In this document: in pieces, positions 1,481-26,541 of the stretch | Layout: every line of letters starts with the position of its first letter | How positions within the stretch are numbered: position 1 is the first letter of the stretch | Source: Candidatus Roseilinea sp. | GTDB taxonomy: Bacteria; Chloroflexota; Anaerolineae; J036; Brachytrichaceae | Direction of reading: 5' to 3' | DNA: 32,249 bases | Assembly (NCBI GenBank): GCA_025055235.1 | Contig: JANWYN010000101.1 | Location: forward strand, 1-32,249 | The notes under the pieces: model-generated | Told to the model about the DNA's origin: nothing | The model's input: the letters and a program-made list of their open reading frames with translations, nothing else | Database searches by the model: none | Made by a program: the position numbers and the translations under genes

Positions 1481-2224
1481 TCATCGCCTCACCCAGCCTA
1501 GCAGGCCCAGGACAACAGCAGCGAGCAATGCAAGCACGGCCAACACGCGCGCCGGTGTGATCGGCCCGGCGGCCGGCGGGGCAGGCGGTTGCCGCGCCGG
1601 CTCAGCCGCGGCGACGGTCGCTGCCGGTTCGCTCATCGCCCGGCGCGATGGTTGCGCCGCATCCGCGCCCGCAGGCGCGGCATCCAGCGCACCGGCGGCC
1701 TGGATCTGATCAGCCGGCAACGCCTCGCTCTGCATCGGCGTCACCAACAATGCCGCCGTGCCCGTCACGATGAGCATCGGCGCCATCTCGACTGCCGGCT
1801 GTGCCGGTGCAGCCGCGGGCAACTCGCGCTGCGACGACATCTGTGCAGCCGGCGCGGCCGCCGGGACAGCCGCAGGCGCCGCTGCAAAGGGCGCCGGGCG
1901 TAACCACTCGAACGCCACCAGCGAGACGAAGATCAGCGTCGCGGCCAGCGAGCCCAGCCGGAAGATCCACGGCGAGAACGAAGACCGGCGCGGCTCGGGC
2001 GCGGCCTGCTTACGGCCGGCGTCGAGCGGCAGGATGAAGTTGCGCGGCGGCTGCACGGCCGGCAACGCGCGCGCCTCGCGGACGAGCAGGCGCGTCGCTG
2101 CAACGCGGCGGCGCAGCGCAGGGTCCTGCACCATCCGCGCGTCGAACGCGGCGCGCTCGGCCTCGCTCAGCCTGCCGTCCACATACGCGGAGATCAACTC
2201 GTCTTCGGTCATCGTCCTTCCCAT
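1481..2224 (-). CDS. membrane-anchored anti-sigma factor
   Basis: A 247-residue protein whose N-terminus (about residues 6-55: EDELISAYVDGRLSEAERA, then a DPALRRRV helix) matches the anti-sigma-factor N-terminal domain. A transmembrane helix follows at about residues 88-110. Next comes a long Ala/Pro-rich stretch, and a second hydrophobic helix ends the protein just before WVRR. The Cys/His zinc motif of ZAS anti-sigma factors is absent, so it would bind sigma without zinc. The start at 2224 overlaps the sigma stop (TAATG), the expected arrangement for a cognate pair; a second ATG at 2212 follows GGGAAGG and is also possible. It probably holds the ECF sigma factor at the membrane; the signal is unknown. 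Confidence 0.75.
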   Translation of the reverse strand: MGRTMTEDELISAYVDGRLSEAERAAFDARMVQDPALRRRVAATRLLVREARALPAVQPPRNFILPLDAGRKQAAPEPRRSSFSPWIFRLGSLAATLIFVSLVAFEWLRPAPFAAAPAAVPAAAPAAQMSSQRELPAAAPAQPAVEMAPMLIVTGTAALLVTPMQSEALPADQIQAAGALDAAPAGADAAQPSRRAMSEPAATVAAAEPARQPPAPPAAGPITPARVLAVLALLAAVVLGLLGWVRR

Positions 2225-2811
2225 TACTGACGAAACTCGTCGGGCAGCAGTTCCTCGTGCGCCAGCAGCGCATCGCGCAACTTGGCGCGCGCCCGGCTCA
2301 GCCGGCTCTTCACCGTGCCGAGCGACACTTGCATCGCTTCGGCGATTTCTTCGTAGCTCAAGCCCTGAATATCAGACAGCACGAACGTGATGCGCTGATC
2401 GGGCGGCAATTGCAACGCGGCGCGCGCGATGAACCGGCGCAGGTCGCTGCGCTCGGCGGCATCCACCGGGTTTTCATCGGCAGCGGGCAGCACGTCGGCC
2501 AGGCTGCGACCCTCGTCGGCCTCGTCGCCTTCGAGCGAGGTGGCCGGCCGGCGCTTCTCGTAGCGCAGCGCATCGTAGCAGGCGTTGGTCACCGTGCGCA
2601 GTAGCCAGCTCTTGAACGAGCCGCCGCGATAGTCGGTGATGTGCGTGAACGCGGAGAGGAACGCCTCCTGCGTCGCGTCGGCGGCTGCGTCCGGCTCGCC
2701 CAGGATGCGATAAGCGACGTTGTAGACCTGCGCCTGGTAGGCCAGCACCAGTTGGTTGAACGAGGTCACATCGCCGCGCTGCGCCGCGCGAATCAACGCC
2801 GCTTCATCCAT
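2224..2811 (-). CDS. RNA polymerase ECF sigma factor
   Basis: A 195-residue sigma-70 family, group 4 (ECF) factor. Region 2 covers about residues 10-85 (core-binding [11 protein letters not shown], then [19 protein letters not shown]). Region 4 covers about residues 125-180, ending in the helix-turn-helix [25 protein letters not shown] (given here only as landmarks). There is no region 1.1 or 3, as expected. Its start overlaps the aroQ stop by 8 bp and its stop overlaps the anti-sigma start, so all three are translationally linked. An ECF/anti-sigma pair inside an aromatic biosynthesis operon is unusual. It may simply be co-transcribed, or it may tie envelope stress to aromatic supply; the sequence does not say which. 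Confidence 0.93.
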
Positions 2812-3265
2812 CGGCTGGATTGTGATGTTGCTCGGCCAAGATGTCCAGCAATGCCGCCAGACCCAGCGTGTAGCTGCGCCAGCCGAAGCCGGCGATCACA
2901 CCCACCGCCACCGGCGAGATGAACGAGTGGTGCCGGAAAGGCTCGCGTTTGTGCACGTTCGAGAGATGCACCTCGACACAGGGCAAAGCCACGGCGCTGA
3001 TCGCATCGCGCAGGGCCACGCTGGTGTGCGTCAGGCCGCCGGGGTTGATCAGGATGCCATGCGCCCATGTGCGCGCGTCGTGGATCGCGTCAATCAACAC
3101 GCCCTCGTGGTTCGACTGCGTGATGCGCAACTCGGCGTTGCGCTGTGCCGCGAGATCGCGCAAGCGTTGGTTGATGTCGTCGAGCGTCACGCGGCCATAC
3201 ACATCCGGCTCGCGTAGGCCGAGCAGGTTCAAGTTGGGGCCGTGGAGGATGAGGATGTTTGGCAT
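2804..3265 (-). CDS. aroQ: 3-dehydroquinate dehydratase, type II
   Basis: A 153-residue type II dehydroquinase, third step of the shikimate pathway (3-dehydroquinate to 3-dehydroshikimate). The N-terminus [19 protein letters not shown] carries the substrate loop and catalytic Tyr. Then come QSNHEG, the [16 protein letters not shown] phosphate-loop region with the catalytic His neighbourhood, and EVHLSN. Length and motif order are normal for the family, which forms dodecamers. No Shine-Dalgarno precedes the ATG, because the upstream sequence is a 7-bp repeat array. The last codons overlap the ECF sigma start (ATGGATGA). Confidence 0.97.
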
Positions 3266-3270
3266 TTTGG

Positions 3271-3349
3271 ATGATTGATGATTGATGATTGGAGATTGAT
3301 AAACGGCAATCTCTAATCTCTAATCTCCAATCTCCAATCTCTAATCTCT
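3271..3349. repeat. 7-bp tandem repeat array A (aroKB/aroQ gap), inverted
   Basis: Strict 7-bp periodicity: ATGATTG x3 and GAGATTG (3271-3298), a 9-nt spacer, then AATCTCT/AATCTCC x6 (3308-3349). The two arms are largely complementary, so the array can fold as a hairpin. It fills the gap between aroKB and aroQ, replaces the aroQ ribosome-binding site, and contains the aroKB stop codon (3341-3343). Confidence 0.85.
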
Positions 3350-4999
3350 AACCAGCCGCGCAAGCATCAACCGCGCCAAATCTGCATCCACCTCATCGCA
3401 CACGAAGGCGTCGCCGGGCGCGCGCAACAGGATGAAGCGCAGCTTGCCGGCGCGCTTCTTCTTGTCGCTCATCATGTAGCTCAAAACTGCATCCGGCGCG
3501 AACGCCAGGCCGGCGAGCGCATCGCGCACATCGTCGAGCGCCGTGGGCAGGCCGACGCTGCACAACAGGCCGACCACTTCGCGCACCAGCGCATCGCTGC
3601 ACACGCCCATCGCCTGCGACAGCTGCACTGCGCACACCATGCCGAGCGACACCGCTTCGCCATGTTTGAGCCGGTAGCGGCTCCACGCCTCGATGCCGTG
3701 GCCGAACGTATGACCCAGGTTCAACAACGCGCGCCGGCCGCGTTCGAACGGATCTTCCTGCACGATCGCGCGCTTGAGCAGGATGGCGTCGGTCAGCGCG
3801 CCGATCAACGCCGGTGCACATCCATCGCTCAACGCGCCGCGCGCAGCAGCATCGCACAACCGCGCGTAAGCAGCGCCGCCGCTCAGCAGCGCCGCCTTGA
3901 TGATCTCGGCCAAGCCGCAGCGCAGCTCGCGCACCGGCAACGACGCCAGCGCGCCGACATCGGCTATGACGAGGTCGGGCTGCTTGAACGCGCCGACCAG
4001 GTTCTTGCCGAAGTCGGTGTCCACGCCCACCTTGCCGCCGATGCTGGAATCGGCCATCGCCAGCAGCGACGTAGGCACCTGGACGAGCGGCACACCGCGC
4101 AGGAAGGTGGCCGCGGCGAAGCCGGCCGTGTCGCCCACCACCCCGCCGCCCAGGGCGATCACCGCGCTCGTGCGCTCCATGCCATGCGCGCTGAAGGCGC
4201 GATACATCGCCTCGACGCTGGCAAGCGTTTTGTGCGCCTCACCGGCAGGCATCGCGTGCAGAAAGCTATGCAAGCCGGCGCGCTCCAGCGCATGCAGCAC
4301 GCGCTCGCCGTAGCGCGCGGCGACGACCTCATCGCTCACCACGGCAAACGGCGGCGTCCATCCGCGCCCGGCCAGCATGAAGCCCAGCGCGTCCAGCAGG
4401 CCTTCGCCGATGGCGATGTCGTAGCGCGCGCTGGCAGCCGGGATGTCCACCGGGATGCGCGCGTACTCGCGCCGGTAGAGGTCGCAGACCAGCTCGGCGA
4501 CTTCTTCGGGCGTGCGCTGCGAGGTGTCCACCCAGTAGTGCATCTGCGCATACTTGGGCGCGCGCTCGCGCAGCAGATGCGCGATGCGGGCGGCCACATC
4601 ACCGCCGTGCAGCATCGGGCGCTCGGCAGCCGCCGCTTCGCCGCCCACACGCTGCAGGATCACCTCCGGCGTTGCCGTCAAGCACACGCCGACGCCGCTG
4701 CCGAGCAGCGCCGCGCGGTTGTCGTCGTTCACGATCATGCCGCCGCCTGTGGCGATGACGCAACCTCGGCGGTCGCTCAATTCGGCGACCAGCGCGCGCT
4801 CACGGTCGCGAAAGTAGGCCTCGCCGCGCGACGCGAAGATCGCCGGGATCGGCATGCCTTCGCGCCGGCTGATCTCCTCGTCGGCATCCACGAAGTCCAG
4901 CCCCAGGCGTTGGGCGCACAGCCGTCCGACGGTGCTCTTGCCCGTGCCCATGAAGCCGGCCAAGATCAAGTTGCGATGAGCAGCGATGTGGTCGGCCAT
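3341..4999 (-). CDS. aroKB: bifunctional shikimate kinase / 3-dehydroquinate synthase
   Basis: A 552-residue fusion. Residues 1-175 are shikimate kinase: Walker A GFMGTGKST (15-23), the DxD shikimate/Mg site (38-40), the substrate Arg in YFRDRE and the GGG motif (85-87), and a lid around HLLRERAPKY. Residues about 182-552 are 3-dehydroquinate synthase: GGGVVGDTAGF, VPTSLLAMADSSIGGK, the zinc-ligand regions NLGHTFGHG and HGEAVSLGM, and the C-terminal KKKRAGKLRFI. Both halves look catalytically intact, so one polypeptide performs steps 2 and 5. AroK-AroB fusions are known in a few bacteria such as Thermotoga. The last two residues and stop codon come from the 7-bp repeat array. The gene sits 9 bp after aroC. 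Confidence 0.96.
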   Translation of the reverse strand: MADHIAAHRNLILAGFMGTGKSTVGRLCAQRLGLDFVDADEEISRREGMPIPAIFASRGEAYFRDRERALVAELSDRRGCVIATGGGMIVNDDNRAALLGSGVGVCLTATPEVILQRVGGEAAAAERPMLHGGDVAARIAHLLRERAPKYAQMHYWVDTSQRTPEEVAELVCDLYRREYARIPVDIPAASARYDIAIGEGLLDALGFMLAGRGWTPPFAVVSDEVVAARYGERVLHALERAGLHSFLHAMPAGEAHKTLASVEAMYRAFSAHGMERTSAVIALGGGVVGDTAGFAAATFLRGVPLVQVPTSLLAMADSSIGGKVGVDTDFGKNLVGAFKQPDLVIADVGALASLPVRELRCGLAEIIKAALLSGGAAYARLCDAAARGALSDGCAPALIGALTDAILLKRAIVQEDPFERGRRALLNLGHTFGHGIEAWSRYRLKHGEAVSLGMVCAVQLSQAMGVCSDALVREVVGLLCSVGLPTALDDVRDALAGLAFAPDAVLSYMMSDKKKRAGKLRFILLRAPGDAFVCDEVDADLARLMLARLVRD

Positions 5000-5008
5000 G
5001 TCTCGTGA

Positions 5009-6193
5009 TCACTCATAGCCGAAGCGCCAGGGCACGGCGTCCATCGGCAAATCTTCCAGTTTCAGCCGGCGCAGCGCTTCGAAGCGCGGGCGCATCTCGT
5101 CCAGCGAGTCGCCGCCCAGCTTCTCGATCAGCGCATCGGCCAGCACGAAGCACACCATCGCCTCGATGATGGGCACGGCGCGCGGCACCTGGCAGAAGTC
5201 GCTGCGCTCATACTTTGTCTTCACCATCTGGCCGGTGGCCAGGTCCACCGAATCGAGCGGGTTGAGCGTGGTGGCGATGGGCTTGAGCGCGGCGCGCACG
5301 ACGATCGGCGCGCCGTTGGTGATGCCGCCCTCCAAGCCGCCGGCGTGATTGGTGCGCTGGCGAATGACGCCGTCGGCGAGGTAGAGCTGATCTTGTGCCT
5401 GCGTGCCGGGCCGCTGCGTCTCGGCGAAGCCATCCCCGATCTCGACGCCTTTGACCGCATGCACGCTCATCACGGCCTGCGCCAGCCGCCCGCTCAGCCG
5501 GCGGTCCCAGTGCACGTGGCTGCCCAGGCCAGGCGGGACGTTGAGTGCAACGACTTCGATCACGCCGCCCAGCGTGTCCTTCGCCTCAATGATCTCGCGG
5601 ATGCGGGCGCGCATGCGCTCGGCGGTCGCCAGGTCGTAACAACGCACATCGCTGTCCTCGGCCCGAGCGAAGCGCTGCAGGTAGGTCTCGGCGTCAACAG
5701 CCGAGGCGTGATCGGGTGTCTCGACCTCGCCGATGCTGAGCACATAGCCGCCGACGACGATGCCGAATTGCCGGAGCAGCGCGCGGCAGGCCGCGCCGAC
5801 CGCGACACGCATGGTGGTCTCGCGCGCCGAGGCGCGCTCCAGCGCCAGGCGCAGCTCGCGATAGCCGTATTTCACCGCGCCGGTCAGGTCGGCGTGCCCG
5901 GGGCGCGGGATGGTCATCGGCTCGACATCGCGATCCTTCCACTTGGCATGATCCAGATTCTCGACGATGAAGGCGATCGGGCCGCCGGTGGTCTTGCCGG
6001 CCATCACGCCGGCGGTGATGCGGGCGTGGTCACGCTCGATCTTCATGCGCCCCCCGCTGCCGTAGCCCTGTTGCCGGCGGGCGAGGTCGCGGTCAATGTC
6101 TTCAGAACACAGCGGCACGCCGGCGGGCATGCCTTCGAGGATGGCAGTCAGCGATGGGCCGTGCGATTCGCCGGCGGTGAGGAACCTAAGCAT
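5009..6193 (-). CDS. aroC: chorismate synthase
   Basis: A 394-residue chorismate synthase, the last shikimate step (EPSP to chorismate, using reduced FMN). Seen are the N-terminal LTAGESHGPSLTAILEGMPAG, the RRQQGYGSGGRM segment, ASARETTMRVAVGA, and the C-terminal segment from VPRAVPIIEAMVCFVLADAL to LGGDSLDEM. The start at 6193 gives MLRFLTAGESHG, the standard N-terminus; the upstream in-frame extension encodes only basic low-complexity residues. It is followed after 9 bp by aroKB and preceded, after 34 bp, by the PIN-domain gene. Confidence 0.97.
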   Translation of the reverse strand: MLRFLTAGESHGPSLTAILEGMPAGVPLCSEDIDRDLARRQQGYGSGGRMKIERDHARITAGVMAGKTTGGPIAFIVENLDHAKWKDRDVEPMTIPRPGHADLTGAVKYGYRELRLALERASARETTMRVAVGAACRALLRQFGIVVGGYVLSIGEVETPDHASAVDAETYLQRFARAEDSDVRCYDLATAERMRARIREIIEAKDTLGGVIEVVALNVPPGLGSHVHWDRRLSGRLAQAVMSVHAVKGVEIGDGFAETQRPGTQAQDQLYLADGVIRQRTNHAGGLEGGITNGAPIVVRAALKPIATTLNPLDSVDLATGQMVKTKYERSDFCQVPRAVPIIEAMVCFVLADALIEKLGGDSLDEMRPRFEALRRLKLEDLPMDAVPWRFGYE

Positions 6194-6227
6194 GATCCGA
6201 CGTCGTCTCTTGCAGTGATGTGACGCT

Positions 6228-6662
6228 TCACTTGAGCAGTCGGACGAAACCCGCTTGCTCAAAGTGACGATCCGATGTCAACGCTCGATCGAAACCGCGA
6301 AGCTGCATGACGACAAAGCTTACGCAGTCCGTCAGGCTCCACGTCTTGTCCATTCGACTCGCCAAGAGTTGCCATGCTCGCGCATCGAGTTCTGCATCTA
6401 CGTACACAATCTCGACCGCGCTGGATCGCTTAATCGCGTTGACGAACGCTACGATCTTTTCTCGCTGAACGCGCAGCGGACTGGTCATCAGAGCCACCAA
6501 CTCAACGAGGATGTAATTGGTTGTCACGAGCTTATACCCTTCGCGTTGAGCTGACAGATAGAATCGCAATGCGTCTTCATGAAACGGTTGAGTCGCGTCG
6601 GCCAGATTTCCCCACCCTGACGTATCAACGAGTATCGCCTTGGACATCTCCTTCGCCAGCAT
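6228..6662 (-). CDS. PIN-domain ribonuclease toxin, VapC-like
   Basis: A 144-residue PIN-domain protein, probably the toxin of a type II toxin-antitoxin pair. The acidic metal-binding residues are in order: Asp13 (ILVDTSGW), Glu54 (TTNYILVE), Asp112 (SLTDCVSF) and Asp131 (ALTSDRHFEQAGF). The family cleaves RNA, often tRNA, with Mg or Mn. The start at 6662 follows GAGGGAG and overlaps the upstream gene by 38 bp. An internal ATG at 6647 follows AAGGAG directly, which is too close to be a good start. It sits inside the aro operon between the antitoxin and aroC, in the same direction. The target is unknown. Confidence 0.85.
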   Translation of the reverse strand: MLAKEMSKAILVDTSGWGNLADATQPFHEDALRFYLSAQREGYKLVTTNYILVELVALMTSPLRVQREKIVAFVNAIKRSSAVEIVYVDAELDARAWQLLASRMDKTWSLTDCVSFVVMQLRGFDRALTSDRHFEQAGFVRLLK

Positions 6663-6948
6663 CGCTCATGCGCTCCCTCAGTGTCTGGCCGATGTAATAA
6701 TCATGTTGCTCGGACCAATCCGGCACGTCGCTCCGAATCGCGCCGATGAACGGCACCACAGGATCGCTCAACGCGATGCGCACGAGGTCGAGGAAGTGGA
6801 CGAGATAGCCGGTATGCTGTGCAGTGCGAATCGCAGCCAACAGCCATGCTTGAGCAGCCTCCTCAGGAGTTTGACCCGCAATATGCGCAGCGCTGGCGAG
6901 CACTTGATAATCGTCTTCGCCAAGCGTGAGTTCTAACCGGTGTTGCAT
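6625..6948 (-). CDS. putative antitoxin partner of the PIN toxin
   Basis: A 107-residue acidic protein. The N-terminal half (LELTLGEDDYQVLASAAHIAG, then a TPEEAAQAWLLAAIR helix) looks like the ribbon-helix or helical region of a small antitoxin. The C-terminal half is hydrophobic, then acidic (DWSEQHDYYIG), and could wrap the toxin. I do not recognise the family. The assignment rests on its size, the overlap with the PIN gene and the order antitoxin-toxin. It has a strong ribosome-binding site, AGGAGG, 6 nt before the ATG, much better than most aro genes here, and lies 24 bp after aroE. Confidence 0.65.
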   Translation of the reverse strand: MQHRLELTLGEDDYQVLASAAHIAGQTPEEAAQAWLLAAIRTAQHTGYLVHFLDLVRIALSDPVVPFIGAIRSDVPDWSEQHDYYIGQTLRERMSDAGEGDVQGDTR

Positions 6949-6972: not shown

Positions 6973-7821
6973 TTACGGTTGTGCGATTGCTTTCCGCATG
7001 ATAGCCGAAACGCGCGCCGCCGGCACGCCCGTCCACTTCTCGAACGCCGCTGCGCCCTGCTCGGCCAGCATGCCGATGCCGCCGATCGCGCGCGCGCCGG
7101 CAGCCTCCGCATGACGCATCAGCTTCGTCACGCGCGGCTTGTATACCAAATCGTAGAGCACGGCCCCGGCAGGGAATGGCACATCATCCGGCCACGGCGA
7201 GCCGTCCTCGTGCGGCCACATGCCGGCGGACGTGCAGTTGACGATCAAGTTTGCCTCTCGACAAGCCGGCTCTACCGGCGACGCGACGACGGCGCAGTTC
7301 TCGCGAATCTCGCGCAAATAAGGCGAATTCGCCAGATCGTCCAGCAGCGCATACGCGCGCGCCGGCGTGCGATTGTGCACCCACACGCGCGCGCCCCGCG
7401 ACGCCAGGGCATAGACGATCGCCCGCGCCGAGCCGCCTGCGCCGAGCACCAGCGCTCGCGTCTCCTCGTTGACGTCCACGCCGTGAAACGCCAGGTCGGC
7501 CAGGAAGCCGGTCCAGTCGGTGTTGTCGCCCAGCAGGTAGCGCCCGCGCTTGAAGATGGTGTTCACCGCGCCGATGGCGCGCGCATGCTCGCTGACCACG
7601 TTGAGATAAGGCATCACTGCCTGCTTGTGCGGGATGGTCACATTGCAGCCGGCGACGTCCTCGCGCTCGCTCAACGTGCGCATGCGCGCCGGCAACATCT
7701 CCGGCGGCGTGTCCCACAGTTCGTAGCGCCAATCGCTCAGCCCAACATGGGCGAACGCTGCGTTCTGCATCTCTGGGCTTTTGCTGTGCGCAACCGGGTG
7801 GCCGATCAGACCGATGAGCAT
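6973..7821 (-). CDS. aroE: shikimate dehydrogenase (NADP+)
   Basis: A 282-residue shikimate dehydrogenase, step 4 (3-dehydroshikimate to shikimate). The N-terminal GLIGHPVAHSKSPEMQN binds shikimate. NVTIPHK carries the catalytic Lys and GDNTDWTGF the catalytic Asp. The Rossmann motif VLGAGGSARAIVYAL is followed by VHNRTPARA, where the Asn-Arg-Thr favours NADP. The C-terminus has GIGMLAEQGAAAFEKWTG. Length is normal. Upstream is a 190-bp gap filled by the longest repeat array in the window; no clear ribosome-binding site is seen. Confidence 0.97.
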   Translation of the reverse strand: MLIGLIGHPVAHSKSPEMQNAAFAHVGLSDWRYELWDTPPEMLPARMRTLSEREDVAGCNVTIPHKQAVMPYLNVVSEHARAIGAVNTIFKRGRYLLGDNTDWTGFLADLAFHGVDVNEETRALVLGAGGSARAIVYALASRGARVWVHNRTPARAYALLDDLANSPYLREIRENCAVVASPVEPACREANLIVNCTSAGMWPHEDGSPWPDDVPFPAGAVLYDLVYKPRVTKLMRHAEAAGARAIGGIGMLAEQGAAAFEKWTGVPAARVSAIMRKAIAQP

Positions 7822-7839: not shown

Positions 7840-8031
7840 TTGGTAATTGGTAACTGGTAATTAGTAATTGGAGATTGGAGATTGATGATGATTGATGATT
7901 GATGATTGACGACTTGATGACCTCGACGGCCAACGATTCGATCCACGATCCACGATCTACGATTCACGATCCACGACCAGACACCAGCGACCAACCACCG
8001 GCGACCGGCGACTAGCAACCAGCGACCAGCA
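7840..8031. repeat. 7-bp tandem repeat array C (aroA/aroE gap), two blocks
   Basis: The longest array. Block 1 (7840-7909) has ten 7-mers drifting from TTGGTAA through TTGGAGA to TGATTGA. A 31-nt irregular stretch follows. Block 2 (7941-8031) has thirteen 7-mers drifting from ATCCACG to ACCAGCG/ACCGGCG. The phase is kept within each block while the unit changes gradually, as expected from repeated local duplication plus drift. The array supplies the aroA stop codon (8012-8014) and fills the whole gap to aroE. Confidence 0.87.
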
Positions 8032-9331
8032 GCGACAAATCGCGGAAGAACGCCGGGTAGGTCTTGGCTACGCATTCCGCGCCGAGGATCGTCGTCTTGC
8101 CTTCGGCGCACAGCCCAGCGACAGCCAATGCCATCGCCACGCGGTGATCGCCCAGACTATCCACGACCGCGCCGCGCAGGCGCGCCGGCCCTTCGACGAC
8201 GAAACCGTCCGCCGTCGCCTCGATCCGCGCGCCCAACTTGCGCAGCTCGCCGACGAACCCCTCCAGCCGGTTGCTCTCTTTGACGCGCAATTCCTCCGCA
8301 TCGCGGACGACGGTGACGCCGTGCGCCTGCGTCGCCGCCACGGCGAAGATGGGGAACTCGTCAATCATGCGCGGCGTCAGTGCGCCGCCCACCTCGACGC
8401 CGCGCAGCTCACCGCCGGCCACTTCCAAGTCGCCCACTGGCTCGCCGCCCTCCTCGCGCAGATTGTTCACGCTGATCGCCGCGCCCATCGCGCGCAACGC
8501 GTCGAGTAGGCCGGTGCGCGTTGAGTTCAGGCCGACTTCCACCAGCCGGACGCGCGCGCCCGGTGTGATCGCCGCTGCGACTATGAAGAACGCTGCCGAC
8601 GAAAAGTCCGCCGGAACCAGCATGTCCAGCGCGCGCAGCGGCTCGTGCGGCGGATGCACCGTGATGCGATTGGCATCGCCTTCGGCCTCCGCAACCACTT
8701 CGACGCCCGCAGCGCGCAGCATGCGCTCGGTGTGGTCGCGCGTCGGCGCCGGCTCGCGGATGGTCACCGGAGCGCCGGCGTATAGCCCGGCCAGCAGCAG
8801 CGCGCTCTTCACCTGCGCGCTGGCGATGGGCATGTCGTAGGTCAGGCCATGTAGCGGGTTGCTGGCCGCGCGGATGACCAACGGCGCACCGCCGTCCGTG
8901 TCCTCGATTTGCGCGCCCATCCGGCGCAGCGGCTCGGTGACGCGACGCATCGGGCGGCGGCGCAACTGCTCGCTGCCGTCCAACACCGAATCGAACGCCT
9001 GGCCGGCCAGGAAGCCGGCCAGCAACCGCATCGTCGTGCCGGATGAGTTGCAGAACAGCGGCTGGGCCGGCGCACGCAAGCCGCGCAAGCCCAGGCCGGG
9101 GATGCACAGGCCAAGCGGGTCGCAGCCGCCGAGCGGAGCGACCTGCACGCCGAGCGCTGCCATGCAGCCCAGTGCGGCGTTCGTGTCGTCGCTCTCCAGC
9201 GGCTCGCGGATGCGGCTGACGCCTTCGGCGATGCCGGCCAGGATCGCTGCACGCACCGTGATGCTGCGGTCGCTCGGAACGCGCAGCACACCGCGCAACG
9301 CACGCGCCGGTTGGATGATCTCGGTGGTCAT
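8012..9331 (-). CDS. aroA: 3-phosphoshikimate 1-carboxyvinyltransferase (EPSP synthase)
   Basis: A 439-residue EPSP synthase, step 6 (shikimate-3-phosphate plus PEP). Conserved elements are [80 protein letters not shown] and KTYPAFF. Two departures stand out. The usual P-G-x-K-S near the N-terminus reads PSDRSIT, with Arg where the substrate-binding Lys (Lys22 of E. coli) normally lies. The usual GNSGT reads NSSGT. The last residues (about LLVAGC) and the stop codon come from the 7-bp repeat array. It overlaps tyrA by 4 bp (ATGA), so the two are translationally coupled. Confidence 0.95.
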
Positions 9332-10179
9332 CGAAAGTGCGCCTTGCGCGCTTGAGCCGCAGCAGTGAGGAAGGCACGCAGCCCCTCCTCATCACGGCGC
9401 TCCAGCAGCGCGGTGAATTGGTCCAGCGTGAATTGCAGATCGCGCACTGCGCCGAGCACGGCATCGGCGTTGGTAAGCAAGATGTCCAGCCACATAGTCA
9501 CATCGCTGGCCGCCACGCGCGAGGTGTCGCGAAATCCGCCGGCCATCACTTCCCACACCTCCGGGTGATTCAGGCTGAACTGGTCGGTCGCCGTCACCAG
9601 CGCGACGGCCAGCGCATAGGGCAGGTGACTGGCGAAAGCGAGCAGCGCGTCGTGCTGCGCGACGCTGACCTCGCGCGGCGCGGCGCCGACGTGCTCGGCC
9701 AGGGCACGGACAACGGAGAGCGATTCGTCATCGGTGCGTTGTGTGCGGGTGAGCAGCCAGGGTGCACCGCGATACAGCGACGCTTCGGCAGCGTCTATGC
9801 CGGCGACCTCCTTGCCGCACATCGGGTGCGAGCCGACGGCGCGCAGGTGCGCCGGCAGCGCATCCATGGCCCGGACAATCTCGGTCTTGGTGCTGCCCAT
9901 GTCGGTGATGATCGCGCCGGGCCGGCAGATACCGGCAAGCTGCTCGATCTGCGCGATCAGCACACGCACCGGCGTGCACAGCACGACAACGTCGGCCTCG
10001 CGCGCAGCGCTGAGTTCTGGCGAAAGGACATCAGCGATGCTGCGCGCTTGCGCCTTGCGCAACGTCTCGGCGCTGCGCGAGACGCCGATCAGCCGGCCGT
10101 GATAGCCATTCGCCCGCAGCGCCAGGGCGAACGACGCGCCCATCAAGCCCAGGCCGACGATGCAGAGGGTGTGTGTCAC
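9328..10179 (-). CDS. tyrA: prephenate dehydrogenase
   Basis: A 283-residue monofunctional prephenate dehydrogenase (prephenate to 4-hydroxyphenylpyruvate, tyrosine branch). It has the Rossmann motif GLGLMG (9-14), [16 protein letters not shown], the active-site region [10 protein letters not shown] with its catalytic His, and ASHLPYALA in the helical dimerisation domain. There is no ACT domain after residue about 270 and no chorismate mutase domain, so tyrosine feedback through an ACT domain is not expected. The start is GTG at 10179. Its upstream region is repeat array B, whose CAGGAC units may act as a poor ribosome-binding site. Confidence 0.95.
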
Positions 10180-10265: not shown

Positions 10266-11291
10266 CTATACCGTGCGATCCACAGCAGCGGCCACGCGAC
10301 GCACCTGCTCGAACAACTCGCAGTATCGCTGTGGGGTGAGCGTCTGCGCGCCGTCGCTCACGGCCTTCGAGGGGTCGGGATGCACCTCGATAATCAACCC
10401 ATCGGCGCCGGCAGCAACAGCAGCTCTGGCGATTGGCGTGACGTATTCCCACTTGCCCGTGCCGTGCGACGGATCTACGATCACCGGCAGGTGCGACAGC
10501 TCCTTCAACACCGGCACGGCATTGATGTCGAGCGTGTTGCGCGTGTATTTCTCGAAGGTGCGAATGCCGCGCTCGCACAGCATCACATCGTAGTTGCCGT
10601 GGGAGAGGATGTATTCGGCAGCCATGAGCAGCTCTTCCATCGTCGCGCTCAGCCCGCGCTTGAGCAGCACCGGCTTGTGCGCCTCGCCCACGGCGTGCAG
10701 CAAGGGGAAGTTCTGCATGTTGCGTGCGCCGACTTGCAGGATGTCGGCGTACTTCGCCACCAGCGGCACCTGCTCCGGCGACATCACCTCGGTGACGATG
10801 GCCAAGCCGTATGCATCGCGCGCCTCGGCCATCCACTTCAGCGCCTCTTCGCCGTGGCCCTGGAAGGAATACGGCGACGTGCGCGGCTTGAACGCACCCC
10901 CGCGCAGGATGGTTGCGCCGGCTTCCTTCACGGCGCGCGCGCTCTCCATGATTTGCTCGCGGCTCTCCACCGCACACGGGCCGGCCATCATCGCCAGGTG
11001 CGTGTTGCCGATAGCGATGGTGCGACTTTTCACGCGCAGTTGAATGACTGTGTTTTGCTTTTTGAAGTCGCGGCTGGCCAGCTTGAACGGCCGCAGGATC
11101 GGCAGCACGCGCTCGACGCCGCTCAACAGCTCGAGCGGCGCCGGGTCTATCGGGCGTTCATCGCCCACCATGCCGATGATCGTGCGCTCTTCGCCTTCGG
11201 AAAGGTGCGCGCGCATGCCGATGGATTCGATGTGCTTGATCACGCCGGCGATCTCGGATGCGGACGCGCCGGCCTTCATGACGATGACCAT
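10266..11291 (-). CDS. aroF: DAHP synthase, type I-beta with N-terminal regulatory domain
   Basis: A 341-residue 3-deoxy-7-phosphoheptulonate synthase, first step (PEP plus erythrose-4-phosphate). Residues 1-75 form the ferredoxin-like/ACT-like domain ([20 protein letters not shown]) typical of the Thermotoga-type I-beta enzyme, through which Tyr or Phe inhibits. The barrel follows: [58 protein letters not shown] and VDPSHGTG. There is no fused chorismate mutase. The start at 11291 follows GGTGGGAAG and gives the normal N-terminus. It is the second DAHP synthase in a row, 54 bp after the first. Confidence 0.95.
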
Positions 11292-11345
11292 ACTTCCCAC
11301 CATTACAAAACTAGAAGCCAGGACGCTCGACCTCTACGGGCCGCG

Positions 11346-12455
11346 CTACGTGACCATCACCTTCCCGTTCACGCGCTCGGACGCATGCAGGAATGGCGTT
11401 GAACTGTGACGCCGGACGCGCACTGCTTCGGCCAGCCGGTCGAGCACGCGCTCGGTATCCTCCCATCCGATGCACGCGTCGGTGATGCTTTTGCCGTATT
11501 CGAGTGGCTGGCCGGGGATGAGATCCTGCCGGCCGGCGACCAGGTGCGATTCCAGCATCACGCCGGCGATGGCGCGCTCGCCCGCTTCGATTTGCTGTGC
11601 CACATCCTCCGCCACGAGGAGCTGATTCTCATGCTTCTTGTTGCTGTTGCCGTGCGAGCAGTCAATCATCAAACGCGGCGACAGGCCGTCGCGCAGGAGC
11701 GCCTCTGCCGTCGCGCGCACGCTGGCATTGTCGTAGTTAGGCGCCTTGCCGCCGCGCAGCACGATGTGGCAGTCGTCGTTACCGGCGGTGTGCACGATGG
11801 CACTGATGCCACCTTTGGTTACGGAGAGAAAATGATGCGGCTGGCGGGCGGCTTTGATCGCGTCAATCGCGATCTTGATGTTGCCATCGGTGCCGTTCTT
11901 GAAGCCGACCGGACACGACAGGCCGCTGGCCAGCTCGCGATGCACTTGCGACTCGGTCGTGCGCGCGCCGATGGCGCCCCAAGCGATCAGATCGGCAACG
12001 TATTGCGGCGAGATCGTGTCGAGGTATTCGGTGGCCGCCGGCACGCCCAGCTCGCTAATGTCCAAGAGCAGCTTGCGCGCCAGCCGCAGCCCCTTGTTGA
12101 TGCGGAACGAGCCGTCGAGGTCGGGGTCGTTGATCAACCCCTTCCAACCCACGGTGGTGCGCGGCTTCTCAAAATACACGCGCATGATGATCTCCAGCGC
12201 GTCGCGGCAACGTTGGCGCACGGGCTTCAGCCGCGTCGCATACTCGAAGGCCGCCTGCACATCGTGCACACTGCACGGCCCCACCACGACGAAGATGCGA
12301 TCGTCATCGCCGTGCAAAATGTGATGCACGGCGCGCCGGGTCTCGTAGACCAGCTTCGCCACCTCGTGCGTGATGGGGAACTCGCGCATCAGGTGCGCTG
12401 GCGGGGCCAGCTCTTTGATCTCTCGGATGCGAACGTCATCGGTTTGGTAAATCAT
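11346..12455 (-). CDS. aroG: DAHP synthase, type I-alpha (AroG/F/H-like)
   Basis: A 369-residue DAHP synthase of the enterobacterial AroFGH kind, and the first structural gene of the operon. Landmarks are GPCSVHDVQ, MRVYFEKPRTTVGWKG, DPDLDGSF, GARTTESQVHRELASGL, GFKNGTDG, SVTKGG, LRGGKAPNYD and MIDCSHGNSNKKHENQ. These supply the PEP, metal and erythrose-4-phosphate sites. The N-terminal extension before residue about 50 is the part that binds feedback inhibitor in E. coli homologues. The start at 12455 has AAGGA 7 nt upstream; an in-frame TTG at 12482 lies in the terminator tail. Expression is predicted to be controlled by the upstream attenuator. Confidence 0.95.
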   Translation of the reverse strand: MIYQTDDVRIREIKELAPPAHLMREFPITHEVAKLVYETRRAVHHILHGDDDRIFVVVGPCSVHDVQAAFEYATRLKPVRQRCRDALEIIMRVYFEKPRTTVGWKGLINDPDLDGSFRINKGLRLARKLLLDISELGVPAATEYLDTISPQYVADLIAWGAIGARTTESQVHRELASGLSCPVGFKNGTDGNIKIAIDAIKAARQPHHFLSVTKGGISAIVHTAGNDDCHIVLRGGKAPNYDNASVRATAEALLRDGLSPRLMIDCSHGNSNKKHENQLLVAEDVAQQIEAGERAIAGVMLESHLVAGRQDLIPGQPLEYGKSITDACIGWEDTERVLDRLAEAVRVRRHSSTPFLHASERVNGKVMVT

Positions 12456-12473: not shown

Positions 12474-12510
12474 AAAAATCAAAAGCGCGGAGCTTACCAG
12501 CTCCGCGCTT
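12474..12510 (-). terminator. intrinsic terminator of the aro leader (attenuator hairpin)
   Basis: On the minus strand a perfect 12-bp stem, AAGCGCGGAGCT (12510-12499), pairs with AGCTCCGCGCTT (12494-12483) around a GGTA loop. It is followed at once by TTGATTTTT (12482-12474). It lies between the promoter and the first structural gene, 19 bp before its start codon, so by default it would stop transcription of the operon. Confidence 0.8.
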
Positions 12511-12577
12511 CTACCTGACCTGCGACTGCTACTTTTGGTTACCTGCCGGTCGTCTCGAACCCGCGCGCCAGTAAGCT
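12491..12577 (-). promoter_or_regulatory. predicted anti-terminator pairing in the aro leader
   Basis: Segment B, AGCTTACTGGC (12577-12567), can pair over 11 bp (two G-U wobbles) with segment D, GCTGGTAAGCT (12501-12491), which spans the terminator loop and part of both arms. That pairing would destroy the terminator. B lies inside the leader ORF downstream of the aromatic codons, so it is free when a ribosome stalls there. A competing 12-bp perfect pairing joins segment A (12614-12603, over the Tyr-Phe-Trp-Phe codons) to segment C (12540-12529). A:C encloses B and would block B:D. A 7-bp hairpin, 12580-12586/12590-12596, lies between. Confidence 0.65.
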
Positions 12578-12637
12578 GCCTTTGCCCACGGCAAAGTAGC
12601 TAAACCAAAAGTAGCCGAAAAAGCGCACGGATGCCAT
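12539..12637 (-). CDS. aromatic-rich leader peptide of the aro operon
   Basis: A 32-residue ORF starting about 10 nt after the predicted transcription start and ending in TAA 83 nt before the first structural gene's start codon. Residues 5-15 read RFFGYFWFSYF: five Phe, two Tyr and one Trp within ten positions, all three end products of the pathway. Four of these five Phe codons are TTT despite the high GC. The run of codons for Tyr9, Phe10, Trp11 and Phe12 is itself half of a 12-bp inverted repeat. A ribosome slowed by shortage of any charged aromatic tRNA would stall here. The peptide has no other recognisable domain, so its role should lie in being translated. Confidence 0.8.
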   Translation of the reverse strand: MASVRFFGYFWFSYFAVGKGSLLARGFETTGR

Positions 12638-12653
12638 GTCCGAGATGGCCGAC

Positions 12654-12682
12654 ATACTAAGCCATGATGCGCGAGTTGTCAA
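12654..12682 (-). promoter_or_regulatory. sigma-70 type promoter of the aro operon
   Basis: On the minus strand TTGACA (12682-12677), a 17-bp spacer and TAGTAT (12659-12654): a full -35 match, a near-consensus -10 and ideal spacing. Transcription should start near 12647, giving a leader of about 190 nt. A palindrome, AATTCGAATT (12687-12696), lies 4 bp upstream of the -35 and could be an operator. Confidence 0.8.
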
Positions 12683-12914
12683 ATGCAATTCGAATTCACT
12701 CGAACGAATCCCGACTCCCCCAAGTCGCGGGCGCAGCGAGGCCGTGCCGCGCCAAAAGTTCGCGCCACATCGGGTGCGGGTGCACGCGCAACGATTTTCG
12801 ATAGAATTTGCGGGCAAGGCGAACGAGAGCGCCGCTCTCCCTGTGCCAGTCGGTATCGCGCTCCGGGACGAGGAAATAGTGCCTTTTAGGTTCCAATTCA
12901 AAAGGAGGGTTCCC
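12683..12914. other. divergent intergenic region between aro operon and transporter operon
   Basis: No gene is seen. It holds the AATTCGAATT palindrome (12687-12696) by the aro promoter. On the plus strand there is a possible -10, TAGAAT (12802-12807), without a clear -35. A strong ribosome-binding site, AAAGGAGG (12901-12908), serves the binding-protein gene. A long plus-strand reading frame crosses the region without a stop, but its start would lie inside the opposite aro leader and its sequence is not protein-like. Confidence 0.5.
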
Positions 12915-13985
<1,071 letters not shown>

Positions 13986-26469: not shown

Positions 26470-26541
26470 CTGGGGCGGCTGGATTCGAACCAACGAATGT
26501 CGGATCCAGAGTCCGATGCCTTACCACTTGGCGACGCCCCA
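26470..26541 (-). tRNA. tRNA-Gln(CTG)
   Basis: A full cloverleaf on the minus strand, 72 nt. Acceptor TGGGGCG pairs with CGCCCCA, including the weak U1-A72 pair typical of bacterial tRNA-Gln, with discriminator G73. The D-arm region reads GCCAAGTGGTAAGGC. The anticodon stem TCGGA/TCCGA holds loop CTCTGGA with anticodon CTG. The T-arm GTTGG-TTCGAAT-CCAGC closes. CCA is not encoded and must be added after transcription. Confidence 0.96.

Follow-up and report, generated by a model that had tools for sequence, protein, structure and literature searches.

A predicted ribosome-mediated attenuator ahead of the shikimate operon of a Candidatus Roseilinea genome has relatives across the Anaerolineae

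The locus described here raises the question of whether the short region in front of a shikimate operon in Candidatus Roseilinea sp. (Chloroflexota, Anaerolineae) allows translation of a small peptide to govern transcription of the pathway. The window, by which we mean the whole stretch analyzed, is the 32,249-nucleotide contig JANWYN010000101.1 from an assembly of 151 contigs (GCA_025055235.1). An initial annotation, made from the sequence alone, had read the region as an attenuator with aromatic control codons, and had proposed that relatives be searched for a conserved aromatic run, a conserved promoter, and compensatory changes in the stems. Relatives, covariation, and folding all lend that core reading strong support. 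We consider it highly probable that the element is a ribosome-mediated transcription attenuator of the shikimate operon, in which a hairpin, P1, acts as the protector and the pairing of two segments, B and D, acts as the antiterminator.

The genes downstream were said to form a complete shikimate operon, and they do: all seven steps to chorismate, together with TyrA, are encoded on the minus strand from 12455 to 2804, as follows.

11346..12455, minus strand: aroG, DAHP synthase class I-alpha (NF006723, TIGR00034)
10266..11303, minus strand: aroF, DAHP synthase class I-beta (TIGR01361, PF18152)
9328..10179, minus strand: tyrA, prephenate/arogenate dehydrogenase (PF02153)
8012..9331, minus strand: aroA, EPSP synthase (TIGR01356)
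6973..7821, minus strand: aroE, shikimate dehydrogenase (TIGR00507)
5009..6262, minus strand: aroC, chorismate synthase (TIGR00033)
3341..4999, minus strand: aroK-aroB fusion, shikimate kinase and 3-dehydroquinate synthase (PF01202, TIGR01357)
2804..3265, minus strand: aroQ, type II 3-dehydroquinase (PF01220)

The true start of aroC is probably near 6190. The stretch between aroE and aroC carries, on the same strand, a gene for a PIN-domain protein (6228-6662) overlapped by a small ORF (6625-6948); the two (6228-6948) look like a toxin-antitoxin pair inserted in the operon. At the other end, an ECF sigma factor gene overlaps the end of aroQ and is followed by a zf-HC2 zinc-finger (anti-sigma-like) gene (1481-2811, minus strand).

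For the order to which the window belongs there are 28 genomes, and a single family accounts for all of them. R2, a covariance model trained on 12 leaders, detects the leader element in 26 of these genomes, and 14 of the finds are independent of model building; R1, a model from the whole upstream alignment, was excluded from the results. The two genomes missed are G009, in which no DAHP synthase was found, and G014, whose operon is apparently cut at contig ends. The aromatic run sought among relatives recurs across the family. In the window, the element consists of the following parts.

12654..12682, minus strand: promoter TTGACA-17-TAGTAT, read from the sequence and from relatives
12539..12637, minus strand: leader ORF of 32 codons, MASVRFFGYFWFSYFAVGKGSLLARGFETTGR
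12605..12615, minus strand: segment A of the initial annotation, whose pairing with C is chiefly a feature of the window's genus
12593..12613, minus strand: control codons Tyr9 Phe10 Trp11 Phe12 Ser13 Tyr14 Phe15, at which stalling lets B:D form in the folding simulation
12569..12607, minus strand: hairpin P1, in which 12607-12590 (codons 11-16) pairs with 12586-12569 (15/15 pairs in the window)
12567..12577, minus strand: segment B, the 5' strand of the antiterminator, AGCTTACTGGC, which pairs with D and covaries with it
12528..12538, minus strand: segment C of the initial annotation, right after the leader stop, which pairs with A
12491..12501, minus strand: segment D, the terminator apex
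12474..12513, minus strand: intrinsic terminator hairpin and T-run, from the terminator scan and covariation

The order of promoter, leader ORF, terminator, and operon on the minus strand matches the initial annotation, as do the promoter elements themselves (TTGACA at 12682-12677, a 17-nt spacer, and TAGTAT at 12659-12654). This promoter is the better of two promoter-like sites between 2000 and 12800, where shuffled sequence gives 1.3; since the count is barely above that of the shuffles, the promoter call rests on conservation in relatives, in which an exact TTGACA at the matching place, with a TAxxxT box 12 to 20 nt before the leader ATG, is present in 24 of the 26 family leaders. The ORF likewise lies where it had been placed (12637-12539, 32 codons), with its ATG 16 nt past the -10 box. 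Upstream of the ATG, its reading frame continues without a stop for a long way, giving 189 codons from a TTG at 13108, and the start at 12637 was therefore assigned from the promoter and the relatives. By the usual promoter spacing, the predicted transcript start would leave a 5' untranslated region of approximately 5 to 15 nt, and a pattern search of the 26 family leaders found none preceded by a Shine-Dalgarno-like motif; translation of the leader is assumed, from a predicted near-leaderless mRNA. A divergent gene for an NMT1/THI5-like ABC transporter binding protein (12636-13985, plus strand) has an ORF that overlaps the leader promoter, and its real start is probably further inside that ORF.

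Residues 6 to 15 of the leader contain five Phe, two Tyr, and one Trp, as had been claimed, so that eight of the nine aromatic residues of the peptide fall within this stretch. The window has 501 ORFs of 12 or more codons, and the one in the leader frame is alone in having eight aromatics in 12 residues; the next-best values are six and five, with one ORF each.

The terminator hairpin (12513-12480) has 15 pairs followed by ATTTTT, and is the strongest of 12 terminator-like sites between 2000 and 12800 (shuffle mean, 6.4). It lies between the leader ORF and the first gene, as expected of an attenuator, with AAGGA and then the aroG ATG (12455) downstream. An 11-bp helix joins segment B (12577-12567) to D (12501-12491), the length given in the initial annotation; two of its pairs are G-U. 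Segment D spans the end of the terminator 5' arm, the loop, and the start of the 3' arm; B:D thus covers the apex alone, and about nine basal terminator pairs could still form. The longest pairing of the window leader with the terminator 5' arm is 6 bp, compared to 11 bp with the apex. The 3' strand of P1 (12586-12569) includes most of segment B. The A:C helix, given previously as 12 bp, is indeed perfect; however, it is 11 bp long outside the stop codon (12 or 13 bp counting stop-codon bases). It belongs to the predicted whole-leader fold. The leader folds with a z score of -4.6 relative to dinucleotide shuffles, and the helix energies are -14.6 kcal/mol for P1, -14.7 kcal/mol for B:D, -24.6 kcal/mol for the terminator, and -15.1 kcal/mol for A:C. 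An Rfam search of the whole window gave no leader or riboswitch family (Trp, Phe, His, and Leu leaders, T-box) at the gathering score; its sole match is a tRNA gene (26470-26541, minus strand).

Class I-alpha AroG is encoded in 15 of the 28 family genomes. The 26 family leaders lie directly before the DAHP synthase gene in 18 cases (eight genus members being entered as aroG-first from earlier locus searches) and before the chorismate mutase gene, aroH, in the other 8; therefore, the leader is not tied to AroG, and it is probably the older of the two in this lineage. In the class as a whole, few genomes encode a class I-alpha AroG (19 of 396 at an E value of ≤1e-60), and among the best 80 relatives listed, those outside the family are mostly from Betaproteobacteria, with at most 71% identity. 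From these sequences, it is probable that aroG was gained laterally under a pre-existing leader, beside the class I-beta AroF. Cotransfer of the leader with aroG from Proteobacteria was rejected, because the same leader precedes chorismate mutase and class I-beta genes in genomes without AroG.

Beyond the family, R2 matches 36 further class genomes, giving 62 of 396 with the 26 family members (E ≤ 0.01). Twenty of these 36 out-of-family matches were fetched: 14 precede aroH-aroF (chorismate mutase-DAHP synthase) operons, and the other 6 do not precede the operon and resemble chance terminators. A second test was independent of the leader model. The aroH gene was found in 89 of 130 class genomes, and the upstream regions of 87 of these loci were examined; the loci left out were those of G114 (gene at the contig start) and G112 (77 nt upstream). 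An ORF with an aromatic run (at least 6 aromatics in 12 residues) lies upstream of 75 of the 87 loci, compared to a mean of 1.6 and a maximum of 6 in 30 shuffles, and in 68 of the 75 a terminator follows it. By the same criteria, no aromatic run was present at the remaining 12 loci, although one of these, in G037, was scored as a miss despite a leader found by R2. A few of the hits may be due to chance, as in G044, with a run of six and no terminator. In a search of the phylum, R2 matched 10 of 400 genomes, of which 8 are family members; the other two are a partial match within the class (G053) and a weak one outside it (G625; E = 7e-4). Since R2 fails on class genomes in which an aromatic leader was found otherwise (G086, G113, and G134), this search cannot establish absence outside the class.

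Which amino acids are sensed was addressed with a set of 39 leaders, comprising the 26 from the family and 13 from outside it; the starts of the latter were picked by script and are uncertain, and the leader of G214 was dropped as identical to that of G275. The aromatic run contains Tyr in all 39 and Phe in 38, while Trp occurs in 22 of the 26 family leaders and 7 of the other 13. At the 75 class aroH loci with a run, Phe and Tyr are present in every case and Trp in 33. The earlier claim that a single leader reads all three aromatic amino acids holds insofar as the codons are present in the window, but Trp is the least conserved signal. A sensor of Phe and Tyr, or of Phe alone, in which the Trp codon carries no regulatory weight, is a serious competitor, although we judge it somewhat less probable than its opposite. 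These frequencies speak for it, as does a review (PMC11802643) that, in its available text, gives Tyr availability no effect in the Corynebacterium glutamicum system. However, Trp is kept in 9 of 9 genomes of the window's genus and in 17 of the 18 family leaders directly before a DAHP synthase gene, compared to 5 of the 8 before chorismate mutase. That Trp tracks the first enzyme is suggestive (Fisher P = 0.07, from one family whose leaders are not independent).

Covariation was assessed in an alignment of the 26 family leaders (A5) against 500 shuffles; because these sequences share ancestry, the shuffle counts should not be read as probabilities. The B:D helix has 90.3% of its cells paired, with 7 pairs and 13 cells showing double changes, and each of the five measures exceeds every one of the 500 shuffles; in the terminator, 98.4% of cells are paired and 6 pairs and 29 cells show double changes, values equaled in none of the shuffles. 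Compensatory changes in both helices had been anticipated, and they are present: an alternative antiterminator overlaps the terminator and covaries with it, as expected of an attenuator. Among the 12 nearest leaders, three B:D pairs carry changes in both partners, a number reached in 6 of 500 shuffles. At class level, apex pairing sets a limit on the model: of 67 aroH loci (one of 68 having been removed by script filters), 26 have a terminator apex matched by the leader with a P value of ≤0.05, and 10 have the remainder of the 5' arm so matched. The P1 hairpin also has 90.3% of its cells paired over the 26 sequences. None of the 500 shuffles attains its 20 double-change cells or its covariation score, but 13 of 500 equal its 5 covarying pairs.

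The initial annotation had instead assigned the termination-forcing role to A:C, and it is unlikely, in our view, that the same attenuator is driven to termination by this helix with P1 being incidental. Within the window's genus the assignment has merit: all 11 pairs are kept in 6 of 9 genomes, with 9, 10, and 7 in the other three; the duplex is stronger than in shuffled leaders (P ≤ 0.03) in G000, G021, G023, and G024; and the helix is part of the predicted fold of the window leader. Three A:C pairs have both partners changed among the 12 nearest leaders, a count that 6 of 500 shuffles reach, and over all 26 sequences there are 13 double-change cells, with 3 of 500 as high. Outside the genus, however, the helix is largely lost while P1 and B:D are kept: 70.2% of A:C cells are paired (a share that 8 of 500 shuffles reach), 221 of 500 shuffles match its count of 5 covarying pairs, and its duplex energies have a median P value of 0.49 over the 39 leaders. 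At a P value of ≤0.05 against shuffled leaders, B:D is significant in 29 of the 39, the P1 hairpin in 13, and A:C in 5. On pairing, covarying pairs, and duplex energies, A:C was thus rejected as a general switch outside the genus, and P1 is the likelier protector.

Folding as a function of ribosome position bears on B:D and P1. The edge of the ribosome was assumed to lie 13 nt past the first base of the A-site codon, with free downstream RNA up to D, and B:D was scored as formed at 70% or more of its maximum. On these terms, 290 of the 306 aromatic codons in the 39 leaders are positions at which B:D forms. The permissive window closes 1 to 3 codons past the last aromatic codon in 35 of the 39 (median, 2; exactly 2 in 26), and 4 leaders fall outside this range; since the setup omits RNA upstream of the ribosome, the closing represents the ribosome covering B. 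When the ribosome occupies the final aromatic codon, B:D has a mean of 10.9 pairs, versus 3.5 with the rest of the leader shuffled, and the real leader tail beats 20 of 20 shuffles in 26 of the 39 leaders. In the window, a ribosome stalled at codons 9 to 15 masks the P1 5' arm wholly or in part while B stays free. B:D also forms with the ribosome at codons 5 to 8, positions that leave P1 entirely or nearly so uncovered, codons 6 and 7 among those at which it is free; therefore, P1 does not block B:D through energy alone. When upstream RNA is kept and the ribosome is at the stop codon, B:D has fewer than four pairs in 20 of the 39 leaders, with a mixed result in the window (4.0 pairs), and in ribosome-free RNA ending at D, the same is true in 14 of the 39 (window, 4.6). 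These stop-codon-state results weaken the support for the P1 step: P1 is present and covaries, yet it does not clearly win over B:D in folding, a point in favor of A:C. In the complete free transcript, the terminator is preferred in 39 of 39 leaders.

At the level of sequence, the parts of the element are in place and conserved, P1, B:D, and the terminator covary, and the aromatic codons are in register with P1 and B. An attenuator with P1 as protector would work as follows. RNA polymerase would start a few bases before the leader ATG, and translation of the leader would begin at once. When Phe-, Tyr-, or Trp-tRNA is scarce, the ribosome would halt at codons 9 to 15, covering the P1 5' arm; the freed B strand would pair with D at the apex of the growing terminator, the hairpin could not nucleate, and polymerase would read into the shikimate operon. 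This stalled, antiterminated state is well supported by the modeling. With charged tRNAs, the ribosome would move on, first covering B, and once it had gone, P1 would refold and hide B, the terminator would form, and transcription would stop near 12474. We infer the translation of the leader, termination and read-through, and the response to each amino acid. That P1 would win over B:D after passage of the ribosome needs folding in order during transcription; the terminated state may need either P1 forming first as the RNA emerges or ribosome cover of B. Apex pairing would presumably be enough to block the terminator, through a kinetic block of hairpin nucleation.

Action in trans by the leader peptide or the short terminated RNA, or an ORF that senses general translation speed, appears very improbable. 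A trp leader peptide has activity in trans in Sinorhizobium, according to the available text of PMC7298713, and the C-terminal half of the leader is, like the aromatic run, conserved within the window's genus. However, the simulations place the aromatic run where stalling exposes B, and the part of the leader that bears B covaries with the terminator apex, as expected of an RNA element acting in cis. That the ORF arose by chance beside a simple promoter-terminator pair, GC-rich DNA commonly holding short ORFs and hairpins, is scarcely credible and is refuted by its standing among the window ORFs, by the element in 26 of 28 family genomes, by the frame, run, promoter, and terminator shared across the family, by the B:D covariation, and by the aromatic-run ORFs at 75 of 87 class aroH loci.

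Leaders of a similar kind precede aroG elsewhere. After one locus (L074) was dropped from 80, 79 aroG loci had enough upstream DNA, and 41 of them have an ORF with an aromatic run, against a mean of 1.1 and a maximum of 4 in shuffles; one of the 41 is that of G012, which leaves 40 of 78 outside the Anaerolineae. These leaders (L020 to L098) lie approximately 140 to 280 nt upstream of aroG, are mostly proteobacterial (Burkholderiales, Oxalobacteraceae, Xanthomonadales, Bradyrhizobium, and Devosia), and most have CCGCC/GGCGG terminators. A terminator is present at 38 of the 41 loci, and in 29 of the 38 the leader pairs over at least 7 bp with the 5' arm, a length without a shuffle control; the pairing often runs through Pro-Leu-Ala codons. 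No prior report of proteobacterial aroG leaders was found in full-text searches of open-licence PubMed Central papers. They resemble the window in having a Phe/Tyr/Trp-rich ORF and a terminator before the same enzyme class, but they pair with the terminator 5' arm, whereas the Anaerolineae element targets the apex, and because of this difference the two probably arose independently. Over the 11 proteobacterial loci searched, the matches given by R2 were all weak, the best having an E value of 0.005 at 17.5 bits.

Leader-peptide attenuation is known above all from Proteobacteria and Actinobacteria. A 2004 survey by Vitreschak and colleagues reportedly covered attenuators of this kind in Proteobacteria and in a handful of other groups. 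A 2010 survey, in its available text, holds that leader-peptide systems had been shown only in Proteobacteria and Actinobacteria, besides ermC and its own Firmicutes cases (PMC2965389), and in Actinobacteria, leader-peptide attenuators for Phe or Tyr were not seen, according to the available text of PMC1262725. Putative attenuators before aromatic supraoperons (aro/tyrA), for example in Vibrio and Thermus, are listed from Merino's database in Table 7 of PMC1173090; the available part of that table gives no leader peptide and has no Chloroflexota entry. In the available text of PMC4833913, the Chloroflexi are mentioned solely as a group with too few genomes. Among the papers listed by full-text searches of the open-licence PubMed Central literature, we recognized none that reports leader-peptide attenuation in Chloroflexota, whether ahead of chorismate mutase operons or elsewhere. 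The novelty proposed for a single aromatic leader ahead of the whole pathway must be drawn more narrowly, since C. glutamicum aroR is published and proteobacterial aroG leaders exist; within these searches, the phylum is new.

The Anaerolineae branch of leader-peptide attenuation is well supported, is wider than the initial annotation saw, and is probably older. We tentatively propose, at a confidence a little short of even, that a class-wide attenuator responding to Phe and Tyr, and in some lineages also to Trp, is ancestral to the Anaerolineae and forms a distinct near-leaderless subtype, which captures the apex and so blocks terminator nucleation rather than sequestering the 5' arm, and which persisted when a proteobacterial-type DAHP synthase replaced chorismate mutase as the first gene under its control. 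The element appears to be a widespread and probably ancient means of controlling the aromatic pathway, in a class whose phylum has few genetic tools, and it predicts when the mostly uncultured Anaerolineae would express that pathway. The class also offers many natural variants of one switch, tracking each other through covariation, with which the apex-capture design becomes testable.

The nearest known system is aroR of C. glutamicum (Neshat et al. 2014), in which a Phe-Tyr-Phe leader precedes aroF, ribosome stalling raises operon transcription, and Phe limitation, not Tyr limitation, is inducing, as given in the available text of PMC11802643 and PMC4046766. Like aroR, the window has an aromatic leader peptide ahead of a DAHP synthase gene. 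Unlike aroR, for which that text names Phe-Tyr-Phe alone, its leader has nine aromatics, including Trp, and belongs to another phylum; this comparison is of leader peptides and not of structures. The window would share with E. coli trpL and pheL the three-state logic of a protector containing the control codons, an antiterminator, and a terminator. However, trpL and pheL each respond to one amino acid and govern terminal branch operons, whereas in the window aromatic codons stand before the shikimate operon. In the usual attenuator design, the antiterminator takes the terminator 5' arm; unlike this trpL/pheL-type design, segment B of the window pairs across the terminator apex. What is new, in addition to the phylum, is the class-wide spread, the antiterminator aimed at the apex, the predicted near-leaderless start, and the retention of the leader through a swap of the first enzyme.
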